Below are positions 258-21,464 of a DNA stretch of 64,000 nt, piece by piece. The stretch comes from Hippea alviniae EP5-r (GTDB lineage Bacteria > Campylobacterota_A > Desulfurellia > Desulfurellales > Hippeaceae), in contig NZ_ATUV01000001.1 of NCBI RefSeq assembly GCF_000420385.1, positions 248,001 through 312,000 on the forward strand, given 5' to 3'. Each line of letters opens with the position of its first letter. Position 1 is the stretch's first letter. The notes beneath the pieces were generated by a model. The model was not told where the DNA came from and made no database searches. It saw nothing but the letters and a program-made list of their open reading frames with translations. A program made the translations under genes and the position numbers.

Positions 258-516
258 TATGCATATTAGTCTGGATAGCTCTTATTTCTCCCTTATGGAG
301 AAAATGAGAGCAAAAAAGACAAGGAGTGCGTTTATTGAAGAACTTCTGGATCACAAAAAAGAGATAAACAGCATTTTAGATCATTTGTCAGCAGTAAAAA
401 ACAACCAGAAGCGCATATTTGCATTGCTGCTTCTGATATCGGAAAAGTGTGAAGTATCGGATGAAAAAATCAAAGCAGTTATGCTCGAAAATAAAGATAA
501 CAAGGAGGAGTTATGA
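244..516 (+). CDS. Small ribbon-helix-helix-like relaxosome accessory protein (TrwA-like position)
   Basis: This 90-residue protein begins with a short β-strand-like segment (KIDMHISLD) followed by two predicted helices containing TRSAFIEELL, as in ribbon-helix-helix DNA-binding proteins. The rest looks helical and charged. The start is taken at 244, behind AAGGAG at 230-235, rather than at the TTG at 226. Its stop overlaps the coupling-protein start by four bases (ATGA). The order small RHH protein, coupling protein, MobF relaxase matches trwA-trwB-trwC of R388-type plasmids, so it probably binds oriT and represses the operon. The fold and role are inferred from position and pattern, not from a clear family match. 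Confidence 0.55.
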   Translation: MSKIDMHISLDSSYFSLMEKMRAKKTRSAFIEELLDHKKEINSILDHLSAVKNNQKRIFALLLLISEKCEVSDEKIKAVMLENKDNKEEL

Positions 517-2357
517 GCAGATCCGTTTTAGGTATAGGTGAAGGATTTGATCTGTTTGTCAACAGGATTAGATACATTGCATACTTTCTTATATACAATA
601 TAGGCCTAACTATCATTGCCTTTTTAGTATCCTTTTTCTATTTTGCGCAGAAGGATTCCAACATAATATTTATTCTCAAATACAGCATAAAATACGGCTT
701 TTACAATCTAAAACTATGGTTCTTTGAAGGACTTGTTAAAAATCAAAAGCTACCTTTTGATTACGGCTTTGCTCAAAATATATACAGAAAATACTTCTCC
801 CTTATACTCCACACCCATGCCTTTTATTATGCTATTGGTATTTCTGTACTCATTTTCCTTATCACCTTCTTTTTAGTCTACAGATATACAAAGAAGTTAT
901 CAGATAAGCGCATAGTAAGAGGCACAAAGATTAAAAATCTGGGCAAAGTTAAAGAGCTCTCCAAGTTCATAAGACCGAAAGATGAAGTAAAGCACACTAT
1001 TGTGATAGGAACGACAGGCTCAGGCAAGACACAGTCCTTACTGAATCTAATGAAAGAAAAAATCACTGAAGGCAAAAATGTCATTTTTGATGCAAAAGGA
1101 GATTTCTTATCCAGGTTTTTTAGAAAGGGAGTAGACATTATTCTAAATCCCCTGGACATAAGGAGCCATAGATGGAACTTTTTGGAAGAAATTGAAGATA
1201 TAGCAGATCTTGAAACTCTCTCCCAATCTCTTATCCAGAAACCAAAGGGAAGCATAAACCATACATCGGATTATTTTATCAAGAATGCGCAACAGATACT
1301 GTTTATGCTCCTTCAACAGCTACTGGAAAAAGGCGTATTAGACAACAGCAAAGTTAGAGAAGCCATACTAAATGAGATATTCTACAAAACAGATTCATCT
1401 TTGCTTTCTGGTTTTAAAAAGGATCTGAATCTTGGCAGCAATGTATCGCTTGCAGATACATTATCCACACTCAGGGTACATCTCTCCTTTGCAAGGGCTA
1501 TAGGTTATGAGCCCGATGTTAATCCAAAGTTTCATATAAAAGAGTGGATAAGCTCTCATGAGAACAGAAATGTGTACATAACCTACGATTTTAGCAAATC
1601 GCCTATAACAGAAGGCTTCTACTCCGCATTCTTAAATATGCTTCTGCTTCGTTTATCATCTATGCCGGATATAAACAGCGCAAACGGCTCAAAGATAAGA
1701 ATCTGGATAGATGAACTTGCAAATCTTCCAACAATACCAAATCTTGGAGAAGCTCTATCTTATGTAAGGAGTAAAGGAGTAGCGTTTTATTTGTCCACCC
1801 AAAGCCTTGAAGGTCTTAAAAGAAGATATAAGACTTTTGAAATTGCAGATATACTTAACAACTGCAACACAATAATCTCCTTTGCTGCCAACGATTCATT
1901 CACGGCAGAAACCATTTCAAAACTGATAGGCCAAACCCAGATAGAGCTGCCCAGTAAGAATAATTTCTCAAGCCCTAAAATCTCTAAAATTGATGGTATA
2001 AACCTTCATAAGGAGAGAACAACAGAAGTGGCCGTTTTGCCTTCAGAGATTATGGCTTTAAAAGATCTTGAGTTTTATGCCAAATTCTCAAGAAGATGGT
2101 ATAAAGGTAAACTAAAATACATAAATATTCCAAAAAATGATATAGAGTTCTTCATAAAAAATACCTCATTCAACCTAAATGCAGACAGCCGTAACCATAA
2201 TAAAAAGAATGAGAACAACGGAGATCCGAAGCCACTTACAACTCATTCAGATGACAACAAAATATCAAAAGAGAAAGACAACCCAAAAGATGAAAACAAG
2301 GACTCAAAGAAACTAAACCAAAACCCGCTTGATATAGCAGATAAATTTATGGAGTAG
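513..2357 (+). CDS. Type IV coupling protein (TrwB/TraD/VirD4 family)
   Basis: This 614-residue membrane ATPase would link the relaxase-DNA complex to a secretion channel. Two hydrophobic segments lie near residues 20-45 and 98-122. A Walker A motif GTTGSGKT is at about 166-173 and a Walker B segment IWIDELANLP near 396-405. AYLSTQ-like downstream motifs (FYLSTQSLEGLKRR) are as in TraD/TraG proteins. The last 60 residues are a hydrophilic Lys/Asn/Asp-rich tail. It overlaps the upstream gene by ATGA and is followed after 3 bases by the relaxase, so the three genes form one operon. Family membership is clear; the secretion partner is not in the window. Confidence 0.88.
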   Translation: MSRSVLGIGEGFDLFVNRIRYIAYFLIYNIGLTIIAFLVSFFYFAQKDSNIIFILKYSIKYGFYNLKLWFFEGLVKNQKLPFDYGFAQNIYRKYFSLILHTHAFYYAIGISVLIFLITFFLVYRYTKKLSDKRIVRGTKIKNLGKVKELSKFIRPKDEVKHTIVIGTTGSGKTQSLLNLMKEKITEGKNVIFDAKGDFLSRFFRKGVDIILNPLDIRSHRWNFLEEIEDIADLETLSQSLIQKPKGSINHTSDYFIKNAQQILFMLLQQLLEKGVLDNSKVREAILNEIFYKTDSSLLSGFKKDLNLGSNVSLADTLSTLRVHLSFARAIGYEPDVNPKFHIKEWISSHENRNVYITYDFSKSPITEGFYSAFLNMLLLRLSSMPDINSANGSKIRIWIDELANLPTIPNLGEALSYVRSKGVAFYLSTQSLEGLKRRYKTFEIADILNNCNTIISFAANDSFTAETISKLIGQTQIELPSKNNFSSPKISKIDGINLHKERTTEVAVLPSEIMALKDLEFYAKFSRRWYKGKLKYINIPKNDIEFFIKNTSFNLNADSRNHNKKNENNGDPKPLTTHSDDNKISKEKDNPKDENKDSKKLNQNPLDIADKFME

Positions 2358-2360
2358 ACT

Positions 2361-5039
2361 ATGTTATCAAAGCCAATCTCAAGAAGCCCCTCTGGGGCTT
2401 CTGCCTATTATTATCAAACAGAAAACAAGACAAACAGCCTATGGGGAGGCAAAGCAGCAGAAGAGCTCGGATTAAGGGATAAAGTGAAACTTGAGCAGTT
2501 TCAAAGAGTCTTGGATGGTTTTCATCCCTATAGGGATGAGAAACTAAGACAGAATGCCAATAAGGAGAATGCTATAGCCGGATGGGATTTTACATTCTCA
2601 CTCTCCAAGAATGCATCCATTTTAGCTTTAGCAGACAGAAGAATAGAAAAGGCATTTCATAAAAGCATTGATGAAGCTTTGTCTATAGCCCAAGAGAGAT
2701 ACGCTCTAACAAGAACAGGCCATGCCGGTATAAACAAAGAGCACACAGGCAACCTTTTATATGCGCGTTTTACACACTACAACTCAAGAGCCAATGACCC
2801 ACAGATTCATGAGCATGTGTTTATTGTCAATACCACCTTAGGAATAGATGGCAAATGGAGAAGCCTTGATAACAGAGAGCTTTACTCACTCTACAAGCAT
2901 ATAGGTCAGATTCAGGAGCATATTTTAGCCCAAGAGCTAAAGAGTCTTGGCTATGAGCTTGAGATAGACAGAAAAAACGGTATGGTTGATATAAAGACAG
3001 CAAGACAAGATGTAAAGGAATTTTTCTCAAAACGCTCTCAGCAGATAAAAGAAGAGTATGAGAAAAACAAAGATAGGTTTGAATATGAAAGAGACGCAAA
3101 GCAGAAGGCAAGCTGGGATACAAGACAAGAGAAGGACCACAACTTCTCATACAAGGAAATGAAGAATAAGGTTAATCTGGAGCTAAAAGAGCATTTTGGA
3201 ATAAACCTGAAGCAGTTCAAAAAACAGGCAGTAGAATTAGCAAGGCAAAACAGCGTGACCCTGCAAGCAAAAACAGCAAAAGAACAATCAGAAGCCACTA
3301 TAGATAAATCTCTCGATACTGCATTGGAAGATTTAACCAAAGCTCAATCCGTTTTTACAAAAGAACAGATTGAAAATCTTATTCTAAAACAGACGCTTGG
3401 TGAAAACATCACTTTAAAACAGATAGACGAAGCTATAGAAAAAGAGATAAAAAACGGAAATATCTTAGCCCTTGATGATAAATATCTAACAACAAGGGCT
3501 ATACAGAGTATAGAAAAAGAAACCGTAAGCATAATAGAGCATAATGTTCAAACAACAGGAATATACGATAAGCAGCAAGCTAAGGAGTTAATAGAGCTCC
3601 AAGAAAGATATCAAAACTTTAAATATACAGATGGACAAAAGGAGTTTATGGAAAAAGCCCTAACTCAAAATAAAAGGTATCTTATCGTTCAGGGTAACGC
3701 AGGAAGTGGAAAAACAGCTTCAATTAAACTTATAAACAGGGCTTATACTCAGGAAGAATGCAAAGTTATTGGCGTTGCTCCAACCGGTAAGGCTGCAAAC
3801 CTACTAAAGGAATCAGGCATTGAGAATGTATTTACAATAGCAAAACTAAAGAACGAGATCCAAAACGGCAATATCAATCTCAACAACTCAAAAACCGTAC
3901 TGATTGTGGATGAATCCAGTATGATTTCAAGCTCTGATATGCACTTTTTGATTAAGCAAGAAACAGCTAAAACTATTCTTGTTGGCGATATAAAGCAGTT
4001 TAAACCCATAGAGCAGGGAAAAGTCTTTGAAGATATACAGAAACACATAAAACCTGAGAACTATGTAGATATGCAACAGACCGTTAGATTCAAGACTCAA
4101 GAACAAAAACAAACAGCTAATCTTATGAACCAGAAGAGATTTGCAGAAGCTATAGACTTGCTTGATAGAAACGGTAGTATAAAAGAGATAGAGGATAAAA
4201 ATGAAAAGATCGAGAAAATCAAGGAGTGCTATATTGAAAATATCAAAAACAACAGAGATGTCCTTTTAATAACAAATACAAATAAGGAAAGGGAAATACT
4301 CAATGAGACAATAAGGGAAAAGCTCAAAGAAGAAGGCTTAGTAGATAAAAAAGACTATAAGGTTTTAGCCTATTCACCCAAGAATTTAGATCCTGCCGAG
4401 AGGAACTTCATAGAAAGCTACCGAAAGACAGACAAACTTATCTTCACAAGCCAAAGCAGAACAGGCCTTGTTGGTGAAGCAAATATTATAGATGTCGATA
4501 AAGATAAAAATACTATAAGAATAGAGCATAATAACAGGATATACGAATTTACTCCGCAGGATTTAAAGGATGCAGCTTTATTTAAACAGAATTATAGAAA
4601 CTTCTCTGTTGGTGATACGATTATCTTTTTAAAGAACGATAAGGGCTTAAATATAGCCAATGGAGAGATAGGCAAAATAGAGAGCATTGAAAAGGACAGA
4701 ATAGGCATAATAAAGCAAAATAGAGAAAATGTAACCATAAACACCAATCAAAACTCAAAAGATGTCTATAACTACATCGACCACGCCTATGCAATAACGA
4801 CCTACAAAAGCCAGGGACAAACAACGAATGTAACAATATATTCTCACAGCTCTGAGACAATCTCAAATCAGGAGTCTTTCTATGTGGCAGCCACAAGGGC
4901 TAAAGAAGAGACTGTTATCTTTACAGACAACAAAGAAATTCTAAAAGAACAATCCCAGATGGAACAGGAGAAGTTGAGCACGATTGATTTTGGAAAGAAA
5001 AGAAGAGATAGAAGAAAAAGAAAAAATGCACCTATCTAA
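2361..5039 (+). CDS. MobF-type conjugative relaxase-helicase (TrwC/TraI family)
   Basis: This 892-residue protein has an N-terminal TrwC relaxase domain and a C-terminal RecD-like helicase. A tyrosine cluster (YYY, 16-18) holds the presumed nicking residue. A metal-binding HUH region includes HEHVFIVN near residues 150-157. The signature WGGKAAEELGL resembles TrwC. The helicase has Walker A GNAGSGKT at about 445-452, Walker B LIVDESS near 514-520 and a YKSQG motif near 814-818. It would nick oriT and unwind the transferred strand. The N-terminus is compact: the tyrosines sit in one triplet rather than in two separated pairs. It ends in a basic tail. Confidence 0.9.
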   Translation: MLSKPISRSPSGASAYYYQTENKTNSLWGGKAAEELGLRDKVKLEQFQRVLDGFHPYRDEKLRQNANKENAIAGWDFTFSLSKNASILALADRRIEKAFHKSIDEALSIAQERYALTRTGHAGINKEHTGNLLYARFTHYNSRANDPQIHEHVFIVNTTLGIDGKWRSLDNRELYSLYKHIGQIQEHILAQELKSLGYELEIDRKNGMVDIKTARQDVKEFFSKRSQQIKEEYEKNKDRFEYERDAKQKASWDTRQEKDHNFSYKEMKNKVNLELKEHFGINLKQFKKQAVELARQNSVTLQAKTAKEQSEATIDKSLDTALEDLTKAQSVFTKEQIENLILKQTLGENITLKQIDEAIEKEIKNGNILALDDKYLTTRAIQSIEKETVSIIEHNVQTTGIYDKQQAKELIELQERYQNFKYTDGQKEFMEKALTQNKRYLIVQGNAGSGKTASIKLINRAYTQEECKVIGVAPTGKAANLLKESGIENVFTIAKLKNEIQNGNINLNNSKTVLIVDESSMISSSDMHFLIKQETAKTILVGDIKQFKPIEQGKVFEDIQKHIKPENYVDMQQTVRFKTQEQKQTANLMNQKRFAEAIDLLDRNGSIKEIEDKNEKIEKIKECYIENIKNNRDVLLITNTNKEREILNETIREKLKEEGLVDKKDYKVLAYSPKNLDPAERNFIESYRKTDKLIFTSQSRTGLVGEANIIDVDKDKNTIRIEHNNRIYEFTPQDLKDAALFKQNYRNFSVGDTIIFLKNDKGLNIANGEIGKIESIEKDRIGIIKQNRENVTINTNQNSKDVYNYIDHAYAITTYKSQGQTTNVTIYSHSSETISNQESFYVAATRAKEETVIFTDNKEILKEQSQMEQEKLSTIDFGKKRRDRRKRKNAPI

Positions 5040-5304: not shown

Positions 5305-5619
5305 ATGAATGATGGAATGGTAGAAATATTTATTGAGCTATGGAGAGAAGCATGCAAGAACGGAATAGACTTTGTTCCCCGTAGTAAAAACAGGGAGTTT
5401 CTGAGTATGTATAAATTGACTAAAAACCAAGCAATTAAGGCTCTGTGTGGTTTGTCTGCAGAGAATTATCGTTCTGGTCCAAAGAAAGACAGAGATAGAA
5501 AAGGGGATGTTTGGGAATTTAAAATAAACATACATGATATAAGAGATATTTATGTGAAGGTTAAGCTTTACAGCATAAACGGTAAATATTATGCAAAATG
5601 CATAAGCTTTCACAAATAA
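5305..5619 (+). CDS. MqsR-like type II toxin
   Basis: This 104-residue basic protein resembles MqsR-family RNase toxins. Its pattern is LTKNQAIKALCGLSAENY, then GPKKDRDRKGDVWEF, then a β-rich end with YVKVKLY and CISFHK. Known MqsR acts as an mRNA interferase on the RelE-like fold. A strong ribosome binding site (aaggagg, 5292-5298) precedes the ATG. The antitoxin gene follows 14 bases after its stop with its own ribosome binding site. The toxin-first order is that of mqsRA. The family call rests on motif pattern and gene order and is fairly sure. Confidence 0.75.
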   Translation: MNDGMVEIFIELWREACKNGIDFVPRSKNREFLSMYKLTKNQAIKALCGLSAENYRSGPKKDRDRKGDVWEFKINIHDIRDIYVKVKLYSINGKYYAKCISFHK

Positions 5620-5633
5620 CATGGAGGTGCAAT

Positions 5634-6668
5634 ATGAAAAAGGCAATTTGCCCTGTATGCGAGAAAGAAGTAGAAGTTGAACCTATAAAGAAAACAATTA
5701 CTGTAAAAGTTAGAAAAGAAAACATAGAGATACCTGTCACCTTTTTCAAGTGCAAAGAGTGCGGATATGATGAAATAGAAGATAGGGAAAATCCGATTGA
5801 TGAGCTTGACCTTGCTTATAGAGAATATAGAAAGAGACATGGTATGCTTCAACCAGAAGAAATTACCCAATTAAGAAAACAGTATGGCTTAAGCCAAAGA
5901 GAATTGGCAAAAATACTGGGATTAAGTCCAGCAACCTTGAGCAGATACGAAACAGGTGGACTACAAGAGCCAGCCCATGATTATTTACTTCAAATGCTAA
6001 AAAAGCCTGAGAATATGCTTGAAATACTCAATAAAAATAAAGAACTTTTAAAAGAAAAAAAGATAATGGCTCTTAGAGAAATCCTTCTGAATAAAATTAA
6101 CAACAAGGAAAAAGAGAAAGAGATAGAAGAAAGACACAACATAAAGAGTGAAACATTTCGTGGAAACAGAAAATTCTCTGTAGAGAGATTTAAAGATATT
6201 GTCTATTACATAATAAACAAAATGGAGCAGATGAACTATGTAGTAAATAAAACCAAACTTAACAAACTTCTATTTTACGCTGATTTTTTATATTTTAGAA
6301 AATTTGGAGTATCTTTAACAGGTGCAGCCTATGCAAAATTACCTTATGGACCATGCCCTGATGATTTCCAACACCTATTAGACTTAATGGAAAAAGAAAA
6401 TATTATAGTAGTTAAAGAGTTCTACCATCCTATAGGAAATGAAGAGATTGCAGAGAGTAGACTTTATACACCTGCATCAAAAAGAGAGATATCATTAAGC
6501 CAACAGGAAAAAGAGTTTATAGATTCTGTAGTAAAAACAATAGGAAGCAAAAAAGCGTCTGAACTGTCAGACCTTTCTCATAAAGAAAAAGCATATAAAG
6601 AGACAGAAGACTACAAAAATATAGATTATAGATACGCTAAAGATATCATTATTACCAACAATAATTAA
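5634..6668 (+). CDS. Antitoxin: MqsA-like zinc ribbon, HTH and Panacea (DUF4065) domains
   Basis: This 344-residue protein has three parts. An N-terminal zinc ribbon has paired cysteines (CPVC at about 6-9 and CKEC near 40-43). A Cro/Xre-type HTH follows (LSQRELAKILGLSPATLSRYE, about 86-106). The C-terminal half is Panacea-like, with KLNKLLFYADFLYF and LPYGPCPDDF. The first two parts match MqsA; Panacea is a known widespread antitoxin domain. The start is placed at 5634 behind GGAGGTG, not at 5598, which lies inside the toxin gene. It should neutralise the upstream toxin and repress the operon through the palindrome at 5273-5286. The MqsA-Panacea fusion makes it much longer than classical MqsA. 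Confidence 0.8.
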   Translation: MKKAICPVCEKEVEVEPIKKTITVKVRKENIEIPVTFFKCKECGYDEIEDRENPIDELDLAYREYRKRHGMLQPEEITQLRKQYGLSQRELAKILGLSPATLSRYETGGLQEPAHDYLLQMLKKPENMLEILNKNKELLKEKKIMALREILLNKINNKEKEKEIEERHNIKSETFRGNRKFSVERFKDIVYYIINKMEQMNYVVNKTKLNKLLFYADFLYFRKFGVSLTGAAYAKLPYGPCPDDFQHLLDLMEKENIIVVKEFYHPIGNEEIAESRLYTPASKREISLSQQEKEFIDSVVKTIGSKKASELSDLSHKEKAYKETEDYKNIDYRYAKDIIITNNN

Positions 6669-10445: not shown

Positions 10446-10770
10446 TCAGCGGAAAGCAAAACTCCTTTGGAAAGGGCGGTTGGTGTCATTCACCAACCTT
10501 ACATAGAAGTCTTGTTGGTTAACAAGGAAATCTTCTATGTGTTTGTAGAGCGTTTCTGAAAAATTCCTTTCGATAAGGTCAACTGGCTTAGCTGCAAACA
10601 CGGCTTGCATAGATATTCCCTCAGAGCTCTTCCCAAACCAAGTCTTCACTTAACACAAAACCCATCACACCATAGTGATCCAGAGAGAGTTCGTTTTTGT
10701 CTATTTCCTCTACAACGATGAAGTTTTTGAGAAGTTTATTATTGCTGTTTACCCAGCAATCTTTTATCAA
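10446..10770 (-). pseudogene. Unknown small gene, apparently frameshifted
   Basis: A 49-codon frame starts at TTG 10770, overlapping the upstream stop as TTGA, and stops at 10621. A second frame covers 10649-10446. Removing one G from the GGG run near 10636 joins them into about 105 residues: LSEDLVW runs on into SSEGISMQAVFAAKPVDLIERNF. The TTGA overlap suggests translational coupling to the upstream paralogue gene. Alternatively these are two tiny genes, the second starting at ATG 10610. No family was recognised. Confidence 0.45.
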
Positions 10771-11339
10771 TGGTTTTTTTTGGCTTCATCGCTCTCAATC
10801 TGTTCATATATCGTGTCCAAATCCTCATCTGAGCAAGAGTTGCAGTATACTGCACCAATAATGAAAGTTAAATCACTCTCAAGTATTTCCATGCTTGTCA
10901 AATCGCAGTTGACAAAGTAGAAATTATCCCTATAGAATTTCTTATTGATCTCCAGTTCCAAGGACCCCCACCTACCATCGTAGATTGACACAACGGCTAT
11001 GAGTTTTTTGCCAGCAGGGACCTTGTCTACTCTACTCTTCGGAGAACAAGCAGGACGAAGCGAGGAAACAGTAAAAGATTGGACATCCTCTCCAGAAAAC
11101 TCATCTACTACATTGTAATTCTCATCATAAACTGTGATAGAACTGTCATACAAAGACGGTGCGTAGCAGGAAAACAAGTCCAAGTCATGCCAACCCACAT
11201 CGTTCTCTCCTAGCTCCAGTTCGTCGTCTATGTAAGCCTCGACACCTCTTTCTTTGATCTGCTGAAAGAGTTTTTCGCTCACAGCACCAATATGGAACTC
11301 AGCCCCTCTACCTTCAATTTCAAGCGTGTACTTTGGCAT
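10767..11339 (-). CDS. Unknown protein, paralogue A of a tandem pair
   Basis: This 190-residue acidic protein is colinear with the next upstream gene product. The N-termini share the pattern M-x-x-Y-x-LE-x2-G-x-G-x-E with a following IG or VG. Both have DL-x-SC near residues 53-60 and end in a similar block (FIIGAVYC here, LVLGAFYC in the partner). It has no membrane segment or catalytic motif that I recognise. A GAGGGG ribosome binding site precedes 11339. It is the second gene of a minus-strand operon in the mobile element. The function is unknown. Confidence 0.7.
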   Translation of the reverse strand: MPKYTLEIEGRGAEFHIGAVSEKLFQQIKERGVEAYIDDELELGENDVGWHDLDLFSCYAPSLYDSSITVYDENYNVVDEFSGEDVQSFTVSSLRPACSPKSRVDKVPAGKKLIAVVSIYDGRWGSLELEINKKFYRDNFYFVNCDLTSMEILESDLTFIIGAVYCNSCSDEDLDTIYEQIESDEAKKNH

Positions 11340-11354
11340 AGATACCCCTCTTTT

Positions 11355-12101
11355 CTATATTTCCTCCCAACCATTTTCTGTTAACACATTACAATACATA
11401 TCTTTTCCTTCTGTTTCTATCTCATCACCGAAGTTAACAGCTATCATGTTGGGATTATTGCTGGCTAATCCAAAAACCTTCCTTTTATCCAGTTCGTGTT
11501 CAGGTAGTAGATTTTTATCTATATCCATTTCTTCCAAGTCTTCTAAGTATTCTTTAGCTTCATCGTTTTTACAGTAGAAAGCTCCCAGCACCAGAGAAAT
11601 TCCGTCTTCTCCGAATATCATCTCTGGAAAAAACGCAGACATAACAACCAATTTATTTACATCAAATTTCTCATCCAACTCAAAGGGTTCACTGCTCCAG
11701 AATCCTTTTTCTTCTGAGAATACAGCTATGATATTTTCCTTGTAAGAGGACTCATCTTTTTTGTGAAGTTTGTCAAATATAAGCGCAGAATCACATGCAA
11801 CGGTGACTACATTTAAGTCATCATACGGAATGGTTGCTATATTCTCAATTTCCCTGTTATTTTTATCTAACCTAACAATCTTCACCTCTAATCCACTGTA
11901 GTCTCCATAAGGAACATTGCAAGATACTAAATCGTTGTTTTCGTAATAAGGATACTCATCCGAATCTTCATCCAACGGGATTTCATCCGCCAAATAATCT
12001 TCACAACCATGAGATTTAATCTTCTCGTATAAACTATCTGGAATAGTCCCTACTAAAAGCTCTCCACCATTGCCTACAAACTCAAGTTTATATCTTGCCA
12101 T
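11355..12101 (-). CDS. Unknown protein, paralogue B of a tandem pair
   Basis: This 248-residue, strongly acidic protein is related along its first 190 residues to paralogue A, with the same N-terminal pattern (RYKLEFVGNGGELLVG) and a conserved FYC near residue 176. It adds a C-terminal extension of about 55 residues rich in Glu and Asp. AGGAGG lies upstream of the ATG at 12101. It leads the minus-strand cluster that continues to 9988. The duplication followed by divergence is seen directly; the role is unknown. The high acidity and cargo position leave room for an anti-defence or immunity role, but nothing in the sequence proves it. Confidence 0.7.
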   Translation of the reverse strand: MARYKLEFVGNGGELLVGTIPDSLYEKIKSHGCEDYLADEIPLDEDSDEYPYYENNDLVSCNVPYGDYSGLEVKIVRLDKNNREIENIATIPYDDLNVVTVACDSALIFDKLHKKDESSYKENIIAVFSEEKGFWSSEPFELDEKFDVNKLVVMSAFFPEMIFGEDGISLVLGAFYCKNDEAKEYLEDLEEMDIDKNLLPEHELDKRKVFGLASNNPNMIAVNFGDEIETEGKDMYCNVLTENGWEEI

Positions 12102-12852: not shown

Positions 12853-12870
12853 AAAGTGTGGGAGATGTGT

Positions 12871-14826
12871 ATGAATGTAAAAATTGATTTAGAAAGATTC
12901 TTGGAATTGTATGAATTTTACAAAAGCAAATACAGGCAGAGATACCCCAAAGGTGATAATGAAACTAGAGAAAAATTAAAGGAGTTTTGGAAGCTATTTG
13001 GAGAATTTTCAGATGATGTTTGTCATGAATGTGAATCTGTCGGTAAAGGGCGCTGGCAAATTTCAGGCAGAATACCTAATTATATTTGGAACAGATATAA
13101 ACCATTTGAAAACAATACACATTTGGTTATTTATGTCACTATTTATAACAATGAAGAAGGTTTGATAATTGGTATAGGCTTAATAGACGATAAGTTAGAC
13201 GAATTTGAGAAAAAAAATAGTAAAAAAATCTACAATTTTTTAGAGAAAGAATTAAAAATTATACAAAAAACTGATGAATGCAAGAATTACAAATTAGGTT
13301 CCAATAAGCATTCATTTAAGGTTCCTATTGAAAGAATAGATGAATTAAATCTGGATTGCATCATAAAAAATTTAAAGGAAATTTATAAAAAAACAATAGA
13401 AACATTCTATAGTAACCGCGAAGAAAATCTTGTAGAAATTAATGATAATCAATACAATCAACACATAAATCCTTTAAATCAAATCCTATACGGTCCACCT
13501 GGGACAGGGAAGACATATAGCGTAATTGAAAAAAGCTTGCAGATTATTGCAATGAAAGATGAAAAATTGAGGGATTTTTTGAGTCAAAATCCAAGCAGGG
13601 AAGAGTTACAGAAAAAGTTTAAAGAATATAGAGACAATGGGCAAATTGAATTTATCACCTTTCATCAAAATTATTCTTATGAAGAGTTTGTGGAAGGATT
13701 AAAAGCTAGAACAGATGCAGAAGGAAACATTTTTTATGAAATAGAAAACGGAATATTTAAAGAAATTTGCAATAAGGCAAAGAAAAACTTGGATGTGTCT
13801 CAAAGTAAAAAGATGAAAATGTCTTTTGAAGATGTGTTTAAAAGAAAAATTCTTGATAAATTAGAAGAAAGCGAAAAGATAACAATTCCTTTGAAAAGAA
13901 AGAATATTTATATATATGAAGTTACAGATAGAAGCGTCAAATTTGAGAAGGAGAGTGGTGATAAAAGCCATACTCTGTCAATAAAAACTTTAAAAGAGAT
14001 TTATGATTCAGAAGATGTAAAATCAAGAATAACAGGAGGGTTAGAACCATATTATCGAGGATTATTTGATTATTTAAAAGAAGGCTCAGAAATAGAAATC
14101 AACGAAGAGTTAGAAAACTTCATCCTAATAATCGACGAGATAAACCGCGGAAATATATCAAAAATCTTTGGCGAGTTGATTACGCTTGTTGAAGAGAGCA
14201 AAAGAATTGGAAACGAAGAAGAAACAATCGTAACCTTGCCTTACAGCAAAGAGCCTTTTGGTGTGCCGAAGAATCTTTACATCATAGGAACGATGAATAC
14301 GGCAGATAGAAGTATTGCTTTGCTTGATACGGCTTTAAGAAGGAGATTTACATTTATCGAAATGATGCCAAAACCCGAACTTTTGAGAGATATAAAAATA
14401 GAAGGTGATATTAATTTAGAAAAGCTGCTTAAAACAATAAATGACAGGATTGAGTATCTTTATGATAGAGACCATACAATAGGACATGCATATTTTTTGA
14501 GTATTAAAAGTTTTGATGATTTAAAAAATATATTCAGAAATAAAATAATTCCACTTCTTGCAGAGTATTTTTATGATGATTGGAAGAAAATTAGACTTGT
14601 TTTGGGAGATAATAGAAAGGAAAATAAAGATTATCGGTTTGTTAAAATTAAAGAACTATCGGCTGAAAATCTTTTTGGAGAAGATATTGATTTTGAGAAT
14701 GAAGTTTATGAGATAAACGAAAGTGCCTTTGATAAACCTGAAAGTTATAGACAGATATATGAAATAAAAAAAGAAGAAGAAAAACAGGAAAACAATGAAG
14801 AATCAACAATTGAAAACGGTAATTGA
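12871..14826 (+). CDS. mcrB: McrB-type GTPase/AAA+ subunit of a McrBC restriction system
   Basis: The 651-residue product has an unrecognised N-terminal domain (about 1-190), presumably for target recognition. The AAA+ core follows: Walker A GPPGTGKT at about 208-215, Walker B LIIDEINRGN near 418-427, sensor region GTMNTADRSI near 472-481 and arginines in ALRRRF near 486-491. The NTADR and INRGN signatures are those of McrB, which hydrolyses GTP and drives DNA translocation for cleavage by McrC. The start at 12871 is preferred because GGAG lies seven bases before it. The gene overlaps mcrC by 32 bases. Known McrBC cuts modified DNA; the modification recognised here cannot be read from the sequence. 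Confidence 0.88.
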   Translation: MNVKIDLERFLELYEFYKSKYRQRYPKGDNETREKLKEFWKLFGEFSDDVCHECESVGKGRWQISGRIPNYIWNRYKPFENNTHLVIYVTIYNNEEGLIIGIGLIDDKLDEFEKKNSKKIYNFLEKELKIIQKTDECKNYKLGSNKHSFKVPIERIDELNLDCIIKNLKEIYKKTIETFYSNREENLVEINDNQYNQHINPLNQILYGPPGTGKTYSVIEKSLQIIAMKDEKLRDFLSQNPSREELQKKFKEYRDNGQIEFITFHQNYSYEEFVEGLKARTDAEGNIFYEIENGIFKEICNKAKKNLDVSQSKKMKMSFEDVFKRKILDKLEESEKITIPLKRKNIYIYEVTDRSVKFEKESGDKSHTLSIKTLKEIYDSEDVKSRITGGLEPYYRGLFDYLKEGSEIEINEELENFILIIDEINRGNISKIFGELITLVEESKRIGNEEETIVTLPYSKEPFGVPKNLYIIGTMNTADRSIALLDTALRRRFTFIEMMPKPELLRDIKIEGDINLEKLLKTINDRIEYLYDRDHTIGHAYFLSIKSFDDLKNIFRNKIIPLLAEYFYDDWKKIRLVLGDNRKENKDYRFVKIKELSAENLFGEDIDFENEVYEINESAFDKPESYRQIYEIKKEEEKQENNEESTIENGN

Positions 14827-15973
14827 ATACGAAGAGATTAAACCTTCTGAAATTGGCGATCCGTTTAAAGAGTTAGAAGAATTCGCCAAGCAAAATCCGA
14901 CCGTCTTGAGTTTTACAAGAAACGGCAACTTGAAGTCCCAAAACTATGTAGGAATTATTCAAACAAAATTGGGATTTGTTTTAGAAATTTTGCCCAAAAT
15001 TTCCGACGAAGAAGATAAAGATAAATCAAAAGCAGTGCTTTTGAGAATGTTAAAAACTTTAAGGGATAGCCCGTTTAGAAATTATCAAATGGCCAACTTA
15101 AAAATAGAAAAATTACCGATTTTTGAAATTTTTATTAAGATGTTTTTGGACGAGCTGGGCATTTTAATAAGAAAAGGCATAAAAAATGATTATGTCTTAC
15201 AAGAAGAGAATCTGCCTTATTTGAAAGGTAAGTTAAAGATATCAGAACACATTATTAAAAATTTAATTCACAAAGAGAAATTTTTTGTGGAATATAATGA
15301 ATATATGCAAAATAGGGTTGAAAATCAAATCATTAAAACCACACTTCTCTTCCTACAGAAAAAAACTAAAAGGTTTCAAAAACTGATAAGAAAGTATCTG
15401 TTTGTGTTTGATGATGTTGACGAAATATATGATGTAAAGTCTGCGTTTGCAAAAATAAGCTTAGATAGAACTATAAAATATTATGAAAATGTGTTAATCT
15501 TTTGCAAAATCTTTTTGTTAAATAGATCTTTTTCTCCATATAAGGGCGATAGTGTGGCTTTTGCTTTGCTTTTTGATATGAATAGATTATTTGAAGATTA
15601 TGTAGGTAGTTATTTCAAGAAGCATTATAAAAACGTAGTGCTCCAACACAGAGAATATCATCTTCTAAGACAGGGAGGCGAAAAATTCTTTAATCTCAGA
15701 CCTGATATATACATGGAAGACGAAAATATCATACTCGATACGAAATGGAAAATTATTAAGGAAGAGAAAGACATCTCTCAAGATGATTTATATCAGATGT
15801 TTACCTATGCCATGAGATACAACAGTCATAAAGTATATTTAATATATCCTAAAATACAAGATTTGAAAATAGACGATTTTGAATTTTGCGGAACAGATAA
15901 TAAAAAACTTTATATTAGGTTTTTTGATGTTGACGGTGATTTTGAGAGAGAAGATTTAATAAGGCTTAATTAA
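14795..15973 (+). CDS. mcrC: McrC-type nuclease subunit
   Basis: The 392-residue protein has the McrC layout. An N-terminal β-rich part (GNLKSQNYVGIIQTKLG, LEILPKI) binds McrB. A C-terminal PD-(D/E)xK nuclease has LRPDIYMED and ILDTKWK near residues 303-322. It lies downstream of and overlapping mcrB, so the two are probably translationally coupled. The catalytic residues appear intact, so the system may be active although the HerA gene before it is broken. Confidence 0.88.
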   Translation: MKNQQLKTVIEYEEIKPSEIGDPFKELEEFAKQNPTVLSFTRNGNLKSQNYVGIIQTKLGFVLEILPKISDEEDKDKSKAVLLRMLKTLRDSPFRNYQMANLKIEKLPIFEIFIKMFLDELGILIRKGIKNDYVLQEENLPYLKGKLKISEHIIKNLIHKEKFFVEYNEYMQNRVENQIIKTTLLFLQKKTKRFQKLIRKYLFVFDDVDEIYDVKSAFAKISLDRTIKYYENVLIFCKIFLLNRSFSPYKGDSVAFALLFDMNRLFEDYVGSYFKKHYKNVVLQHREYHLLRQGGEKFFNLRPDIYMEDENIILDTKWKIIKEEKDISQDDLYQMFTYAMRYNSHKVYLIYPKIQDLKIDDFEFCGTDNKKLYIRFFDVDGDFEREDLIRLN

Positions 15974-16277: not shown

Positions 16278-17159
16278 ATGAGCATCCCTTCAAAAATAGT
16301 ATCAGCGGATATAAATTTTAAAGATCCATCTTCAAAACAATATAAACCAATATTAGATGAAGTAATTAATTTAGTTGCAAAAGAAACTAATAAACCAAAA
16401 GAAGAAATTGAAAAATTATTTGATAAAATTTATACTAAAGCAAAAAGCAATCCTGGTATTGCATTTCCATTAAGAAGTTCTGTTTTTCAATTAATAGATT
16501 TATTACCACCTGATAAAATACCAATTGAAATTTCCTTAGATGAAATCGATAAAGTTTATAATTACATTAGAATTTACATACAAATGTTTAGAAGAATTAG
16601 AGACATATTTTCAGGTAAAATTATCAGACCTGTTGTAATATTTGTTCCTAATCCTTTATTAGATGAAAATTCATCCTTCAATTCAGTTACAACTGGTTCT
16701 GCATCACCAAATGGAGATTTAATCTTTAATGTGAATTTTATAAAAAAATTGGTTTATATTGCTGAATTAGAGTTAAAATATAAAATCATCAAGATAAAAT
16801 CGAAAATATTTGAATCTAATGGTGGGAAAATTCAAGATAAATATGTATATGTAGCATTTTTAATAATACATGAATTGTTCCATTTAGTACAATCAGATGT
16901 TGAATATTTAGATAAAAGAGCAATTCAATATATTTGTAAAAATAAAGAAAAATATAAAGCAACTAAAAATATTCCAAAAACAAACTGTGAAAATAATCCT
17001 CTTACTCTTCAAATTGCAAATCAAATTCAAAATATAGTTGCAGATTATTTTAATAATTATAATATCTGCAGATTAGGACTTCCAGCATTACCAATTGGTT
17101 TATTTTCAAATGAAATAAATTTAGAACATATGACTTATGAACAAGCATATGATGTATGA
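16278..17159 (+). CDS. Putative metallopeptidase-like domain protein (N-terminal half of a DUF2201-like gene)
   Basis: The 293-residue product contains HELFHLVQSDVEY near residues 199-211, a zincin-type HExxH motif. This resembles the putative metallopeptidase domain found N-terminal to vWA domains in DUF2201-type proteins. The reading frame ends at EQAYDV within a 7-bp tandem duplication. Removing one repeat unit joins it in frame to the next gene (EQAYDEVLKEM). The codons are visibly richer in A+T than those of neighbouring chromosomal genes. In related systems such proteins accompany a MoxR-like AAA+ ATPase; none is adjacent here. The peptidase activity is unproven. Confidence 0.65.
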   Translation: MSIPSKIVSADINFKDPSSKQYKPILDEVINLVAKETNKPKEEIEKLFDKIYTKAKSNPGIAFPLRSSVFQLIDLLPPDKIPIEISLDEIDKVYNYIRIYIQMFRRIRDIFSGKIIRPVVIFVPNPLLDENSSFNSVTTGSASPNGDLIFNVNFIKKLVYIAELELKYKIIKIKSKIFESNGGKIQDKYVYVAFLIIHELFHLVQSDVEYLDKRAIQYICKNKEKYKATKNIPKTNCENNPLTLQIANQIQNIVADYFNNYNICRLGLPALPIGLFSNEINLEHMTYEQAYDV

Positions 17160-18315
17160 TGAAGTGTTAAAAGAAATGGATAATATGACACAAGAACAAA
17201 TTGATCAAATGATGAATCAACAAGATAATCATATGGATTCAAATGAAAATGTAAGAAATCAACCACAAAATCAACAAGGAACCGAAAAAAAATCATCCGG
17301 AGAAAATCAAGGAGAAAATAATAACTCCTTATCTGCGCAAAATACACCGCAAGCAGATGTTTCAGGTAAATTAGACCAAAAAAGAGAAGAAATTCAAATA
17401 GATATTGATGAAAGTGCAAAAGATGCAATTACTAAAAAAATGTCAAAAGATGAAATTGAAAGAGCAAAAGAAGAAATGAAAAATCAAAAAAAATTAGATA
17501 GGGAAGCATTAAAAAGAATTGCAGATAAAATAAAAAAAGAAATGGAATCTTCTGAAGAAGGTGTTAATTTTGAAAATGTAAGACCAAAATATAATTGGAA
17601 AATTCTTTTGAAAAAAATGAAACCTTCTGAAAAGAAAGAAGAAGAAACCTATTCAAGAATTTCAAGGAAATCTGCCGCAAGATTATTGCAGACAAAACAA
17701 ACGGGAGTGGCATTATTAATAAGACCGGGTACTAAAGAAGAAGATGTTGGGAAAGGGAGTGTGCTATTTATTCTTGATAGAAGTGATTCAATGAGTAATG
17801 TTTTTGGAATTATCAATGCTGAGATAAAAAAATTACTTACCAAAGATATGCAAAAATATTTTGATGAATTTTATCTTATTAAATTTGATAATGAATTTAG
17901 TTTTTATCAAGTTGATTTTCAAGAAAATAAAATTTTTGAAATTCCACAAATAATGACTTTTATAAAGAAGATGAAATCTAAATGGAATCCTCAAGTATTT
18001 ACAAAAGCAAATAAAAAACCTTATCCATTAATACATTTCTTTGATGCAACAAATTGGGGTGGTGGAACTGATTTTTCAAAAGAAATGTATGATATAACAA
18101 CTTTATTTTTAAAAAATGATAGAAATAATGCTATTTTGATTACTGATGAAGATATTTTATGGAAAGAAAATAAAAAGAAAATAAATTCATTAATTGTAAG
18201 ATATGGTAGAAAACCATTTAAATTTAATATAATACTGAAAGATAGAAGAACATATATAACATTTATTAAAAATTTTAGAGGTTTCAGATATTTGACTTAT
18301 TTTTTGGAGAATTGA
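17137..18315 (+). CDS. vWA-like domain protein (C-terminal half of a DUF2201-like gene)
   Basis: This protein is up to 392 residues long. The first third is a charged, Gln/Asn/Lys-rich linker. The C-terminal part is a von Willebrand A-like domain with the metal-site motif ILDRSDSMSNVFG, in which DxSxS is complete near residues 212-216. GGGTDFSKEM and ILITDEDILW follow. ATGs at 17137, 17149 and 17152 are possible starts; none has a good ribosome binding site. This fits the idea that it was once the continuation of the upstream frame. If translated separately, it would depend on coupling or re-initiation across the overlap. Confidence 0.65.
   Translation: MNKHMMYDEVLKEMDNMTQEQIDQMMNQQDNHMDSNENVRNQPQNQQGTEKKSSGENQGENNNSLSAQNTPQADVSGKLDQKREEIQIDIDESAKDAITKKMSKDEIERAKEEMKNQKKLDREALKRIADKIKKEMESSEEGVNFENVRPKYNWKILLKKMKPSEKKEEETYSRISRKSAARLLQTKQTGVALLIRPGTKEEDVGKGSVLFILDRSDSMSNVFGIINAEIKKLLTKDMQKYFDEFYLIKFDNEFSFYQVDFQENKIFEIPQIMTFIKKMKSKWNPQVFTKANKKPYPLIHFFDATNWGGGTDFSKEMYDITTLFLKNDRNNAILITDEDILWKENKKKINSLIVRYGRKPFKFNIILKDRRTYITFIKNFRGFRYLTYFLEN
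17148..17161 (+). repeat. 7-bp tandem duplication that breaks a reading frame
   Basis: TATGATG occurs twice in direct succession (17148-17154 and 17155-17161). With two copies the metallopeptidase-like frame stops at 17159. With one copy the sequence reads GCA TAT GAT GAA GTG and continues in frame into the vWA domain. This is seen directly in the bases. Confidence 0.9.
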
Positions 18316-18812: not shown

Positions 18813-18814
18813 TT
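18754..18814. repeat. Cluster of four TGCACTAA-type 8-mers forming nested hairpins
   Basis: TGCACTAA (18754-18761), its complement (18773-18780), TGCACTGA (18794-18801) and TTAGTGCA again (18803-18810) alternate in orientation. The right pair extends to a perfect 10-bp stem (18790-18799 with 18805-18814) that overlaps the fic stop codon. Only a short T run follows on the minus strand, so it is a weak terminator candidate. It could also be a binding-site array or a REP-like repeat. Confidence 0.6.
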
Positions 18815-19901
18815 ATTGACTCTTAAGTATCTCAAAAAGTCTACTGTTAATAAAAATCTTTTCTTTGCCAACCTTCTCACTTTTAACTATGCCAATTTTT
18901 TCAAGTTCTTTTAAGTATCTGGCAGCTATATTTCTTGATGCTATCTTATTGTCAACAAGCATAGAGATTTTTGTATATACATTGGAATATAAAATCTCGA
19001 CAAGTTCTTTTGAATATATCTTGGGTATCTGAGATTTTATCTTTTCTGAAGTCTCGTTCATAGCTTCCACAATCTTTTTGCTTAAATTCAGCGTTCTAAA
19101 AGATGTCTCTTCTATAGCCTTCAGCATAAAGACAACCCACTCTTCCCATTCGTTTTTGTAGGTAACATTTCTCAACAATCTGTAATATTCGCTTTTATGT
19201 TCTGTTAAATACCCACTCAAGTATAAAAAGGGTTCGCTTAAAAGGTTTTTTAACACTAAATATAAAACATTTATAATCCTGCCTGTTCTGCCATTTGCAT
19301 CATAGAATGGCTGAATTGCCTCAAACTGATAATGTATTAATGCGAGTTTGGTTAAAGGGTCGAATCCATCTTCGTCAGAGTTTATAAACTCTTCCAAGTT
19401 CTTTAAAAGATTCAAAATAATCTCTTCTCTATCTGGTGGTGTATAGTACACTTCATTTGTTTTATCGTTGATAAGCTTTGTTCCAGGGAGTTTTCTAATG
19501 CCGGCGCTATTGCCTTCTATCTCTTTCTGAATTTCTATAATGATATTCGTGGTTAACAGCCAATGCTTTTTAATCAAGTTATACCCTTTGTAAATGGCTT
19601 TTCTGTAGTTGATTACTTCTTTAACTTCAGGTTTTGTGATATTTTTCCTCAAAATAAGGGATTTATAAAGTTCATCGTGAGTTGTTATTATATTTTCAAT
19701 CTCAGAGCTGTCTTTGGCTTCCTTTATCGTTATTGAGCTTAATATTATATCCTTGTTAGGCAAAAGCTCTGAATAACCTTTTAACTCAGCCAAAGCTTTA
19801 TGTGTTTTTATTAACTGTTTTAAAATTACATCAGTTTCTGAAAAATCCTTAGGTGGCAGGAAAGGTAAATTATTAAAAGGCTTATTGGGGTCAGGTTTCA
19901 T
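18813..19901 (-). CDS. Fic family protein with altered catalytic motif
   Basis: The 362-residue protein has an N-terminal inhibitory-helix motif S-x3-E-N (65-70) and a Fic core (about 90-250). A C-terminal winged-helix region lies near 290-360 (ASRNIAARYLKELEKIGIV). Fic enzymes transfer AMP or related groups using the His of HPFx2(A/G)NGRxxR. Here the segment is IQPFYDANGRTGR, with Gln197 at the position of the catalytic His, while N203, G204, R205 and R208 are kept. A single base (CAG versus CAT/CAC) separates the two. The protein may be inactive or have lost AMPylation but kept DNA-binding regulation. Confidence 0.8.
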   Translation of the reverse strand: MKPDPNKPFNNLPFLPPKDFSETDVILKQLIKTHKALAELKGYSELLPNKDIILSSITIKEAKDSSEIENIITTHDELYKSLILRKNITKPEVKEVINYRKAIYKGYNLIKKHWLLTTNIIIEIQKEIEGNSAGIRKLPGTKLINDKTNEVYYTPPDREEIILNLLKNLEEFINSDEDGFDPLTKLALIHYQFEAIQPFYDANGRTGRIINVLYLVLKNLLSEPFLYLSGYLTEHKSEYYRLLRNVTYKNEWEEWVVFMLKAIEETSFRTLNLSKKIVEAMNETSEKIKSQIPKIYSKELVEILYSNVYTKISMLVDNKIASRNIAARYLKELEKIGIVKSEKVGKEKIFINSRLFEILKSQ

Positions 19902-20037: not shown

Positions 20038-21225
20038 TTAGCTACTTTTATTTGATTTTATTTTGTCTTCTGTTTTGGAATTTAAATCTCTGCTTACATT
20101 TTCAAGGTCTTCTACGGCTTTCCTTTTTATATCCGGTATAAGGTGAGAGTAGCGCTCTGTCATAGCTAAGGTTTTGTGTCCCATAAGCTCTTTAATTGTA
20201 TAGATAGGTGTTCCTTTTATGGCAAGCCAGGAAGCAAAAGTGTGCCTAAGGGTGTGGAAAACAACTCTATCTTTTCTATCAACTACATTATCATTCAACC
20301 CTAAAGCATTGACTGCTCTAAAGAATGAGTGTGATATTTTGGTTATCTTTTCACCCTTGGAGCTTTTAAATACAAGGCCACTCTCTTCTTTTAAGTCTCT
20401 CTTTTTATCAAGCAGCATTTCTTTAACGCCATCTGTCATATATGCAACCCTGTCGGTTTTGTTTTTAGAGTTTTTTATGTATATTATCCCATTATCAAAA
20501 TCTATATCTTCCCACTTGAGATTGAATATCTCACCTGCTCTCATGCCAGTGTATAGGCTCAAATACGCCATTTCGTAGGTCTGTTTGCTATGTTTCTTTA
20601 GCTCTTCAAGCAAATTGCCTGCTTCTTCAGGTGATAAAAATCTAATTCTTTTATTGTCTTCTTTTGGTTTTTTAACCTTAGTTGCTGGGTTTATCCCTGA
20701 ATATATTCCCCAGTTTATTGCCATATTGAATGCCTGTCTGACAACAGCTAAAGCATACTCTATTGTTCTTGGAGCTTTACCTTCTTCTTTCATTTCTTTT
20801 TTTACTTTCTCAAGGTCAAAGGGAGATATATCCTTCAGAGTTTTTTCTCCTATAATTGGCTTAATCCATGCGTTGTATAACTGATACTCCCTTTGATAGC
20901 TTGAGCTGTTTTTGTTGTCTTTAGAGTAGGGCAGATACTTCTCACTCATAAACTCATCAAATGTAATTTTTTGTTTTTTCTTCTTTTGGATAGGTATTAC
21001 TTCTTCTCCAAGTCTTATATTTCTTAGCCTTTCGTTTCTTATCTCAAAGGCATATTTGGCAGTTATACCTTCGCTTTCCCATCCTATTTTCTCCCTTATG
21101 CGCTTACCAGAAGGATCAACATATCTGATGTAGTAACACCTATCTGGTTTTCCGTTAAATCTTCTCTCACTGCTTTCGTAATATGTCACTCCAGGATACT
21201 TCTTCATGCTAAAAAATTTAGCCAT
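20038..21225 (-). CDS. Tyrosine integrase of the mobile element
   Basis: The 395-residue protein has an N-terminal arm-binding region, a SAM-like core-binding domain (about 85-175) and a tyrosine recombinase catalytic domain. The catalytic set is complete: R229, H324-x2-R327, H350 and Y359, in GMRAGEIF, HTLRHTF, GHK and ERYSH. GGAGG precedes the start. The gene sits 190 bases from the tRNA-Phe 3' fragment and reads away from it, so it almost certainly catalyses integration and, with a helper, excision at that site. Confidence 0.93.
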   Translation of the reverse strand: MAKFFSMKKYPGVTYYESSERRFNGKPDRCYYIRYVDPSGKRIREKIGWESEGITAKYAFEIRNERLRNIRLGEEVIPIQKKKKQKITFDEFMSEKYLPYSKDNKNSSSYQREYQLYNAWIKPIIGEKTLKDISPFDLEKVKKEMKEEGKAPRTIEYALAVVRQAFNMAINWGIYSGINPATKVKKPKEDNKRIRFLSPEEAGNLLEELKKHSKQTYEMAYLSLYTGMRAGEIFNLKWEDIDFDNGIIYIKNSKNKTDRVAYMTDGVKEMLLDKKRDLKEESGLVFKSSKGEKITKISHSFFRAVNALGLNDNVVDRKDRVVFHTLRHTFASWLAIKGTPIYTIKELMGHKTLAMTERYSHLIPDIKRKAVEDLENVSRDLNSKTEDKIKSNKSS

Positions 21226-21289: not shown

Positions 21290-21414
21290 TAAATGTGGAA
21301 AAATTAGAGATTTTAAGGGAAATCCAAGGAACATTGAAATCTTCATAATTACTTATATAACAAGGAAAAATGAAAGTCAAGGAAAAGTGGGGAAGAGAGC
21401 AGAAATAGTGCGGA

Positions 21415-21464
21415 AGGGACTGAAAATCCCTGTGTCGGCGGTTCGATTCCGTCTCTCGGCACCA
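21415..21464 (+). other. attR: 3' half of a tRNA-Phe gene
   Basis: The sequence runs from the anticodon arm (stem AGGGA/TCCCT, loop CTGAAAA, anticodon GAA) through variable region, T arm (GGCGG TTCGATT CCGTC) and acceptor strand TCTCGGC to ACCA. The expected 5' half (a complement GCCGAGA and a D arm) is missing upstream, so this is not a working tRNA. It is the duplicated end left by integration into tRNA-Phe. Confidence 0.85.

Follow-up and report, generated by a model that had tools for sequence, protein, structure and literature searches.

A 7-bp tandem duplication appears to have split a single phage-derived gene into two overlapping open reading frames in Hippea alviniae EP5-r. The gene is carried by a mobilizable element that lies partly within the 64,000-nt stretch of contig NZ_ATUV01000001.1 that we analyzed (hereafter, the window). 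We consider it the most probable reading that a phage morphogenesis gene was acquired and recently lost its function through a frameshift, with a probability of roughly 0.78; the loss of function itself, and the origin of the duplication by slippage, are what we infer from the arrangement described below.

The upstream frame (positions 16278 to 17159, forward strand) encodes 293 amino acids, ending in EQAYDV followed by TGA, and contains a metallopeptidase-like domain with an HELFH (HExxH) motif. The downstream frame (17137 to 18315, forward strand) encodes 392 amino acids, comprising a linker and a vWA domain with the MIDAS elements DRSDS, T (in GGTDFS), and D. Two tandem copies of TATGATG, and no part of a third, occupy 17148 to 17161 on the forward strand (TATGATGTATGATG), making up 14 nt of exact period 7. 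The second copy shifts the frame by +1 and brings in the TGA at 17157 to 17159 that ends the upstream frame, just as the first-pass annotation had described. The vWA frame lies one base ahead of the upstream frame and, in agreement with the same annotation's remark that the duplication puts ATG codons into it, has in-frame ATGs at 17137, 17149, and 17152. By itself, the doublet is unremarkable and within chance: nine 7-bp tandem doublets are seen in the 64-kb window, and Markov simulations predict 5.7 to 6.1 ± 2.3. It stands out from chance because its position coincides exactly with the frame break.

A search with the metallopeptidase half matched one viral contig, IMGVR_UViG_3300026488_000058, in which the homologue is one 739-residue protein covering both halves, with 62% identity for the joined halves overall and 66% for the N-terminal half. 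Through the junction this viral relative reads EEAYDRVLKEFDNM, aligned to EQAYD-EVLKEMDNM of the window; when the junction is read with a single repeat copy, giving ...EQAYDEVLKEMDNM, it matches the viral protein gap-free. The DNA alignment across the junction has exactly one gap, of 7 nt, and the viral relative lacks the repeat entirely at this point. Two phages, PA5oct of Pseudomonas and D497 of Vibrio, and a genome of the same class also carry single-polypeptide homologues. Every homologue examined is in a single frame, while the window gene is split at 17159. Alignment of homologues across the junction had been set beforehand as a test of the first-pass annotation; its outcome, single polypeptides that run through the boundary rather than dividing or ending at it, upholds the claims that one repeat copy joins the two frames and that one ancestral DUF2201-type metallopeptidase-vWA gene was split by the duplication. 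A second 7-bp doublet, AAAGCAA twice at 16437 to 16450, lies within the same split gene and leaves the frame unbroken; the viral relative aligns gap-free over it.

The ancestral state deduced for the junction depends on a single close homologue and several remote ones. No further close relatives emerged with the viral relative, a two-sequence alignment, or the relative's ATPase as seeds, and a search with the vWA half gave no match in genome contigs, viral contigs, plasmids, or phages. The gene was not found in any of the other genomes of the phylum set. PDB sequence searches gave no match, and the AlphaFold model of the gene (pLDDT of 42) was too poor to use.

For profile searches, the unaltered window DNA was translated with a +1 read-through at the junction to give the joined protein. 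It matched PHROG 1314 in one stretch (E value of 9.2e-10, residues 146 to 544) and, weakly, DUF2201_N (PF13203; E value of 0.0015, residues 248 to 467, with a score of 18.7 bits, under the 23.2 cutoff); both matches run across residue 293. The PF09967 profile found no match in the joined halves. When searched alone, the N-terminal half matched neither PHROG 1314 nor DUF2201_N, and the C-terminal half matched phrog_1314 only at an E value of 0.019 and VWA_2 weakly (E value of 0.016); neither half had a significant match to any metallopeptidase-vWA family, and PADLOC assigned neither to a defense family. In a four-sequence alignment that includes the PA5oct and D497 homologues, the H, E, H, and D of the HELFH and ADYFNN columns are invariant, as are the MIDAS columns DRSDS, GGTD, and D (DxSxS...T...D). 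We read the ORF pair as a single DUF2201-type gene, of the kind present in phages and cells, with a predicted zincin-like metallopeptidase, a linker, and a vWA domain with a MIDAS. The PHROG 1314 members PA5oct gp144 (L015:3353-4537) and D497_0041 (L017:5078-6202) both match PF13203 and PF09967. The records of these two proteins, and the PHROG 1314 label, read "HNH endonuclease." This family name is likely wrong, as the members examined are DUF2201 metallopeptidases with a vWA domain.

The ratios of nonsynonymous to synonymous change (dN/dS) relative to the viral relative are 0.24 for the N-terminal half and 0.34 for the C-terminal half, rough values with Ks near 1; they mostly reflect the history before the break and indicate that the gene was constrained up to that point. 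A random point change would introduce a stop in about 6% of cases, and over the ~2 kb of both halves there are zero further stops; unconstrained divergence since the break is put at less than ~0.024 substitutions per site. The break is probably recent, because no second stop or frameshift is present. This agrees with the proposals that the gene is freshly broken (at most ~2.4% substitution if unconstrained) and that both halves are otherwise intact.

Translation would start at 16278, where a strong Shine-Dalgarno sequence, AGGAGGT (-11.6 kcal/mol), precedes the start codon, and stop at 17159. The three ATGs of the vWA frame have no Shine-Dalgarno sequence (-0.8 to -1.2 kcal/mol at all of them), and the vWA half would be made poorly, if at all, through re-initiation at these overlapping ATGs. 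Since the ATG at 17152 to 17154 is separated from the TGA at 17157 to 17159 by only 2 nt, some coupled translation is permitted; weak coupled re-initiation at this codon is possible. The proximity of this ATG to the stop, together with the fact that both halves remain open, weighs against taking loss of function as certain, and the same features, with no other lesion in either half, would be expected if the duplication had made separate metallopeptidase and vWA subunits that are produced through stop-start coupling and function as a complex. A cobT-like gene of halovirus HHTV-2 has been reported as two separate ORFs with the vWA domain apart (PMC8651126), and the HHTV-2 record annotates a separate vWA ORF, gp3. 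However, a functional split is improbable in the window gene: all three candidate starts lack the signal that the first half has, the partner ATPase is missing, and the peptidase domain itself is truncated, since the DUF2201_N match runs past the cut.

Full-length protein could also be produced by recoding, either through a +1 shift at GTA-TGA or through a hop of 7 nt that takes the ribosome from one GAT to the other. The shift needed is indeed +1, the take-off and landing words (TATGAT) are identical, and in chlD, a cobT-related gene, programmed frameshifting gives two products (PMC9227772). Yet the junction has no obvious slippery site, no Shine-Dalgarno-like stimulator, and no downstream stimulatory fold better than that of shuffled sequence (z of +1.0), and the viral relative, which is unshifted and carries no such signal, needs none. 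We rejected programmed frameshifting because its signals are missing, and recoding of any kind appears extremely improbable. As precedents for such genes yielding two products, chlD (PMC9227772) and the split HHTV-2 cobT (PMC8651126) come closest; neither resembles the window junction in detail.

There is one assembly only, and the halves are otherwise open and lesion-free, as they would be if the true genome had a single copy and the second were an error of sequencing or assembly. The assembly is, however, 99.6% complete in 4 contigs and, to our knowledge, a 7-bp duplication outside a homopolymer is not a typical error of the common platforms; we regard such an error as quite improbable. The loss-of-function frameshift remains our preferred reading, in which the gene would have been inactivated recently by the 7-bp tandem duplication, itself most likely the result of slippage during replication.

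The first-pass annotation had also raised the possibility of a phase-variable switch, in which the TATGATG tract slips from one copy to two and back, toggling the fused protein. A change in copy number by one does restore or break the frame, but the one-copy fusion lends no special support to a switch, because any frameshifting duplication would behave likewise. Heptanucleotide slippage switches are known in E. coli neuO (PMC9659370) and meningococcal pglE (PMC7157529), where, as in the window gene, the frame depends on how many copies of a 7-bp unit are present; the window gene differs from them in having two copies only and no evidence of variation. Among the pentanucleotide tracts of meningococcal opa, those with ≥9 repeats mutate or switch at 0.16 per month, compared with 0.007 per month for those with ≤5 (PMC7157529), and a tract of two copies is expected to mutate or revert below the rate for ≤5 repeats, that is, rarely. 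The count of 7-bp doublets in the window is near chance (9 versus ~6 expected), which argues against the switch. Slippage switches usually rest on longer repeat tracts, and the TATGATG tract, with its two copies, is not a many-copy one. Neither a one-copy allele nor a second isolate turned up, and an exact-junction scan of viral contigs gave nothing. It also speaks against a switch that the gene is an orphan with no ATPase and that the viral relative lacks the repeat. We conclude that a phase switch is unlikely, indeed very much so for slippage between one and two copies, and the proposal of phase variability was not borne out.

The split gene resides on a 28.8-kb mobilizable element integrated at a tRNA-Phe gene (C1:240676-269436), which corresponds to window positions 1 to 21436 plus 7.3 kb upstream. 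The left attachment site, attL, is the tRNA-Phe gene at C1:240676, 28.8 kb left of attR; the attR core (AAGGGACTGAAAATCCCTGTGTC, positions 21414 to 21436) is a 23-bp exact copy of part of that gene. The element encodes a tyrosine integrase (20038 to 21225, reverse strand) and a TrwB-like coupling protein with a TrwC-type relaxase (513 to 5039, forward strand). Its cargo includes a McrB-like AAA ATPase with McrC for defense (12856 to 15973, forward strand) and a SoFic-like Fic protein (18813 to 19901, reverse strand), both neighbors of the split gene. It also carries a primase and an AbiE-like gene. The split gene is an orphan cargo gene on this integrative mobilizable element, beside McrBC and Fic.

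Several further features of the element were observed. Most genomes of the genus contain related integrases. At 5598 to 6668, one ORF joins an MqsA/HTH antitoxin-like N terminus to a SocA/Panacea antitoxin domain. The adjacent reverse-strand ORFs at 10767 to 11339 and 11355 to 12101 encode proteins with no Pfam match whose N termini look related (YTLEIEGRGAEFHIG and YKLEFVGNGGELLVG), in a stretch with a GC content of ~40%, unusually high for the element.

The split gene (25.0% GC) matches the viral contig (25.2%) and lies far below the host sequence in the window (37%); we infer that the split gene was acquired from a phage. The gene of the viral relative lies directly behind that of a 1008-amino-acid protein with two AAA+ modules, with T4-like baseplate and tail-tube genes close by. 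The usual neighbor of the DUF2201 metallopeptidase-vWA family is a MoxR-like ATPase, and an AAA+ ATPase partner is present in the viral relative, in D497, where the metallopeptidase-vWA gene comes after a PHROG 1297 ATPase, and in S-SCSM1, where it is a few genes away. No phage-type AAA+ partner is found beside the split gene, and the whole genome gave only one very weak match, over fewer than 60 residues. The McrB-like neighbor was set aside as a substitute MoxR partner, since it is paired with McrC. A search for the T4 baseplate family in the host clade found none, and control genomes gave no signal either. The DUF2201-like gene model of the first-pass annotation is upheld. That annotation missed that the gene is an orphan of phage type, lacking its ATPase and located on a mobilizable element that has integrated.

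The closest known system is the pair described in a survey of jumbo phages, in which a MoxR ATPase accompanies a vWA cochaperone that has a metallopeptidase fused at its N terminus, and for which a role in virion assembly was proposed (PMC7824862). The group 2.2 jumbo phage pair (PHROG 1297 and PHROG 1314, the latter with PF13203 and PF09967) has the domain order of the window gene, and the viral relative likewise sits behind a double AAA+ ATPase, near T4-like baseplate genes. In contrast to this pair, the window gene is split and has no ATPase; it is also longer (~677 residues versus 374 to 394) and resides in a bacterial integrative element. The CobS/CobT-like pairs of cyanophages and haloviruses (PMC8651126), such as the S-SCSM1 peptidase and cobS, also combine an AAA+ ATPase with a peptidase-like/vWA protein of similar length (711 amino acids), but the S-SCSM1 peptidase belongs to PHROG 459, unlike the window gene, which matches PHROG 1314. 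The HHTV-2 cobT resembles the window gene in being naturally split, with the vWA domain in its own ORF (PMC8651126); however, gp3 is ~220 bp from the preceding ORF, unlike the overlapping frameshift in the window.

The intact protein would be a co-chaperone/peptidase acting with a MoxR-like AAA+ ATPase, possibly in virion assembly, as proposed in phages. The gene would have been captured with no ATPase, as cargo of the mobilizable element in tRNA-Phe, where it adjoins McrBC and Fic, and selection to keep it is probably weak for this reason. It is conceivable, though very improbable, that the element instead keeps the captured, ATPase-less phage co-chaperone among its defense cargo, split or switchable, with the free peptidase or vWA part serving as a decoy that spoils the assembly of related phages that infect the cell. 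If the orphan gene were functional, it would offer a lead on mobile elements that turn phage assembly factors against phages. The analysis of the gene further suggests that the databases probably misname PHROG 1314 as "HNH endonuclease." Finally, one short duplication has made two convincing genes out of one, and automated annotation would list two proteins here.
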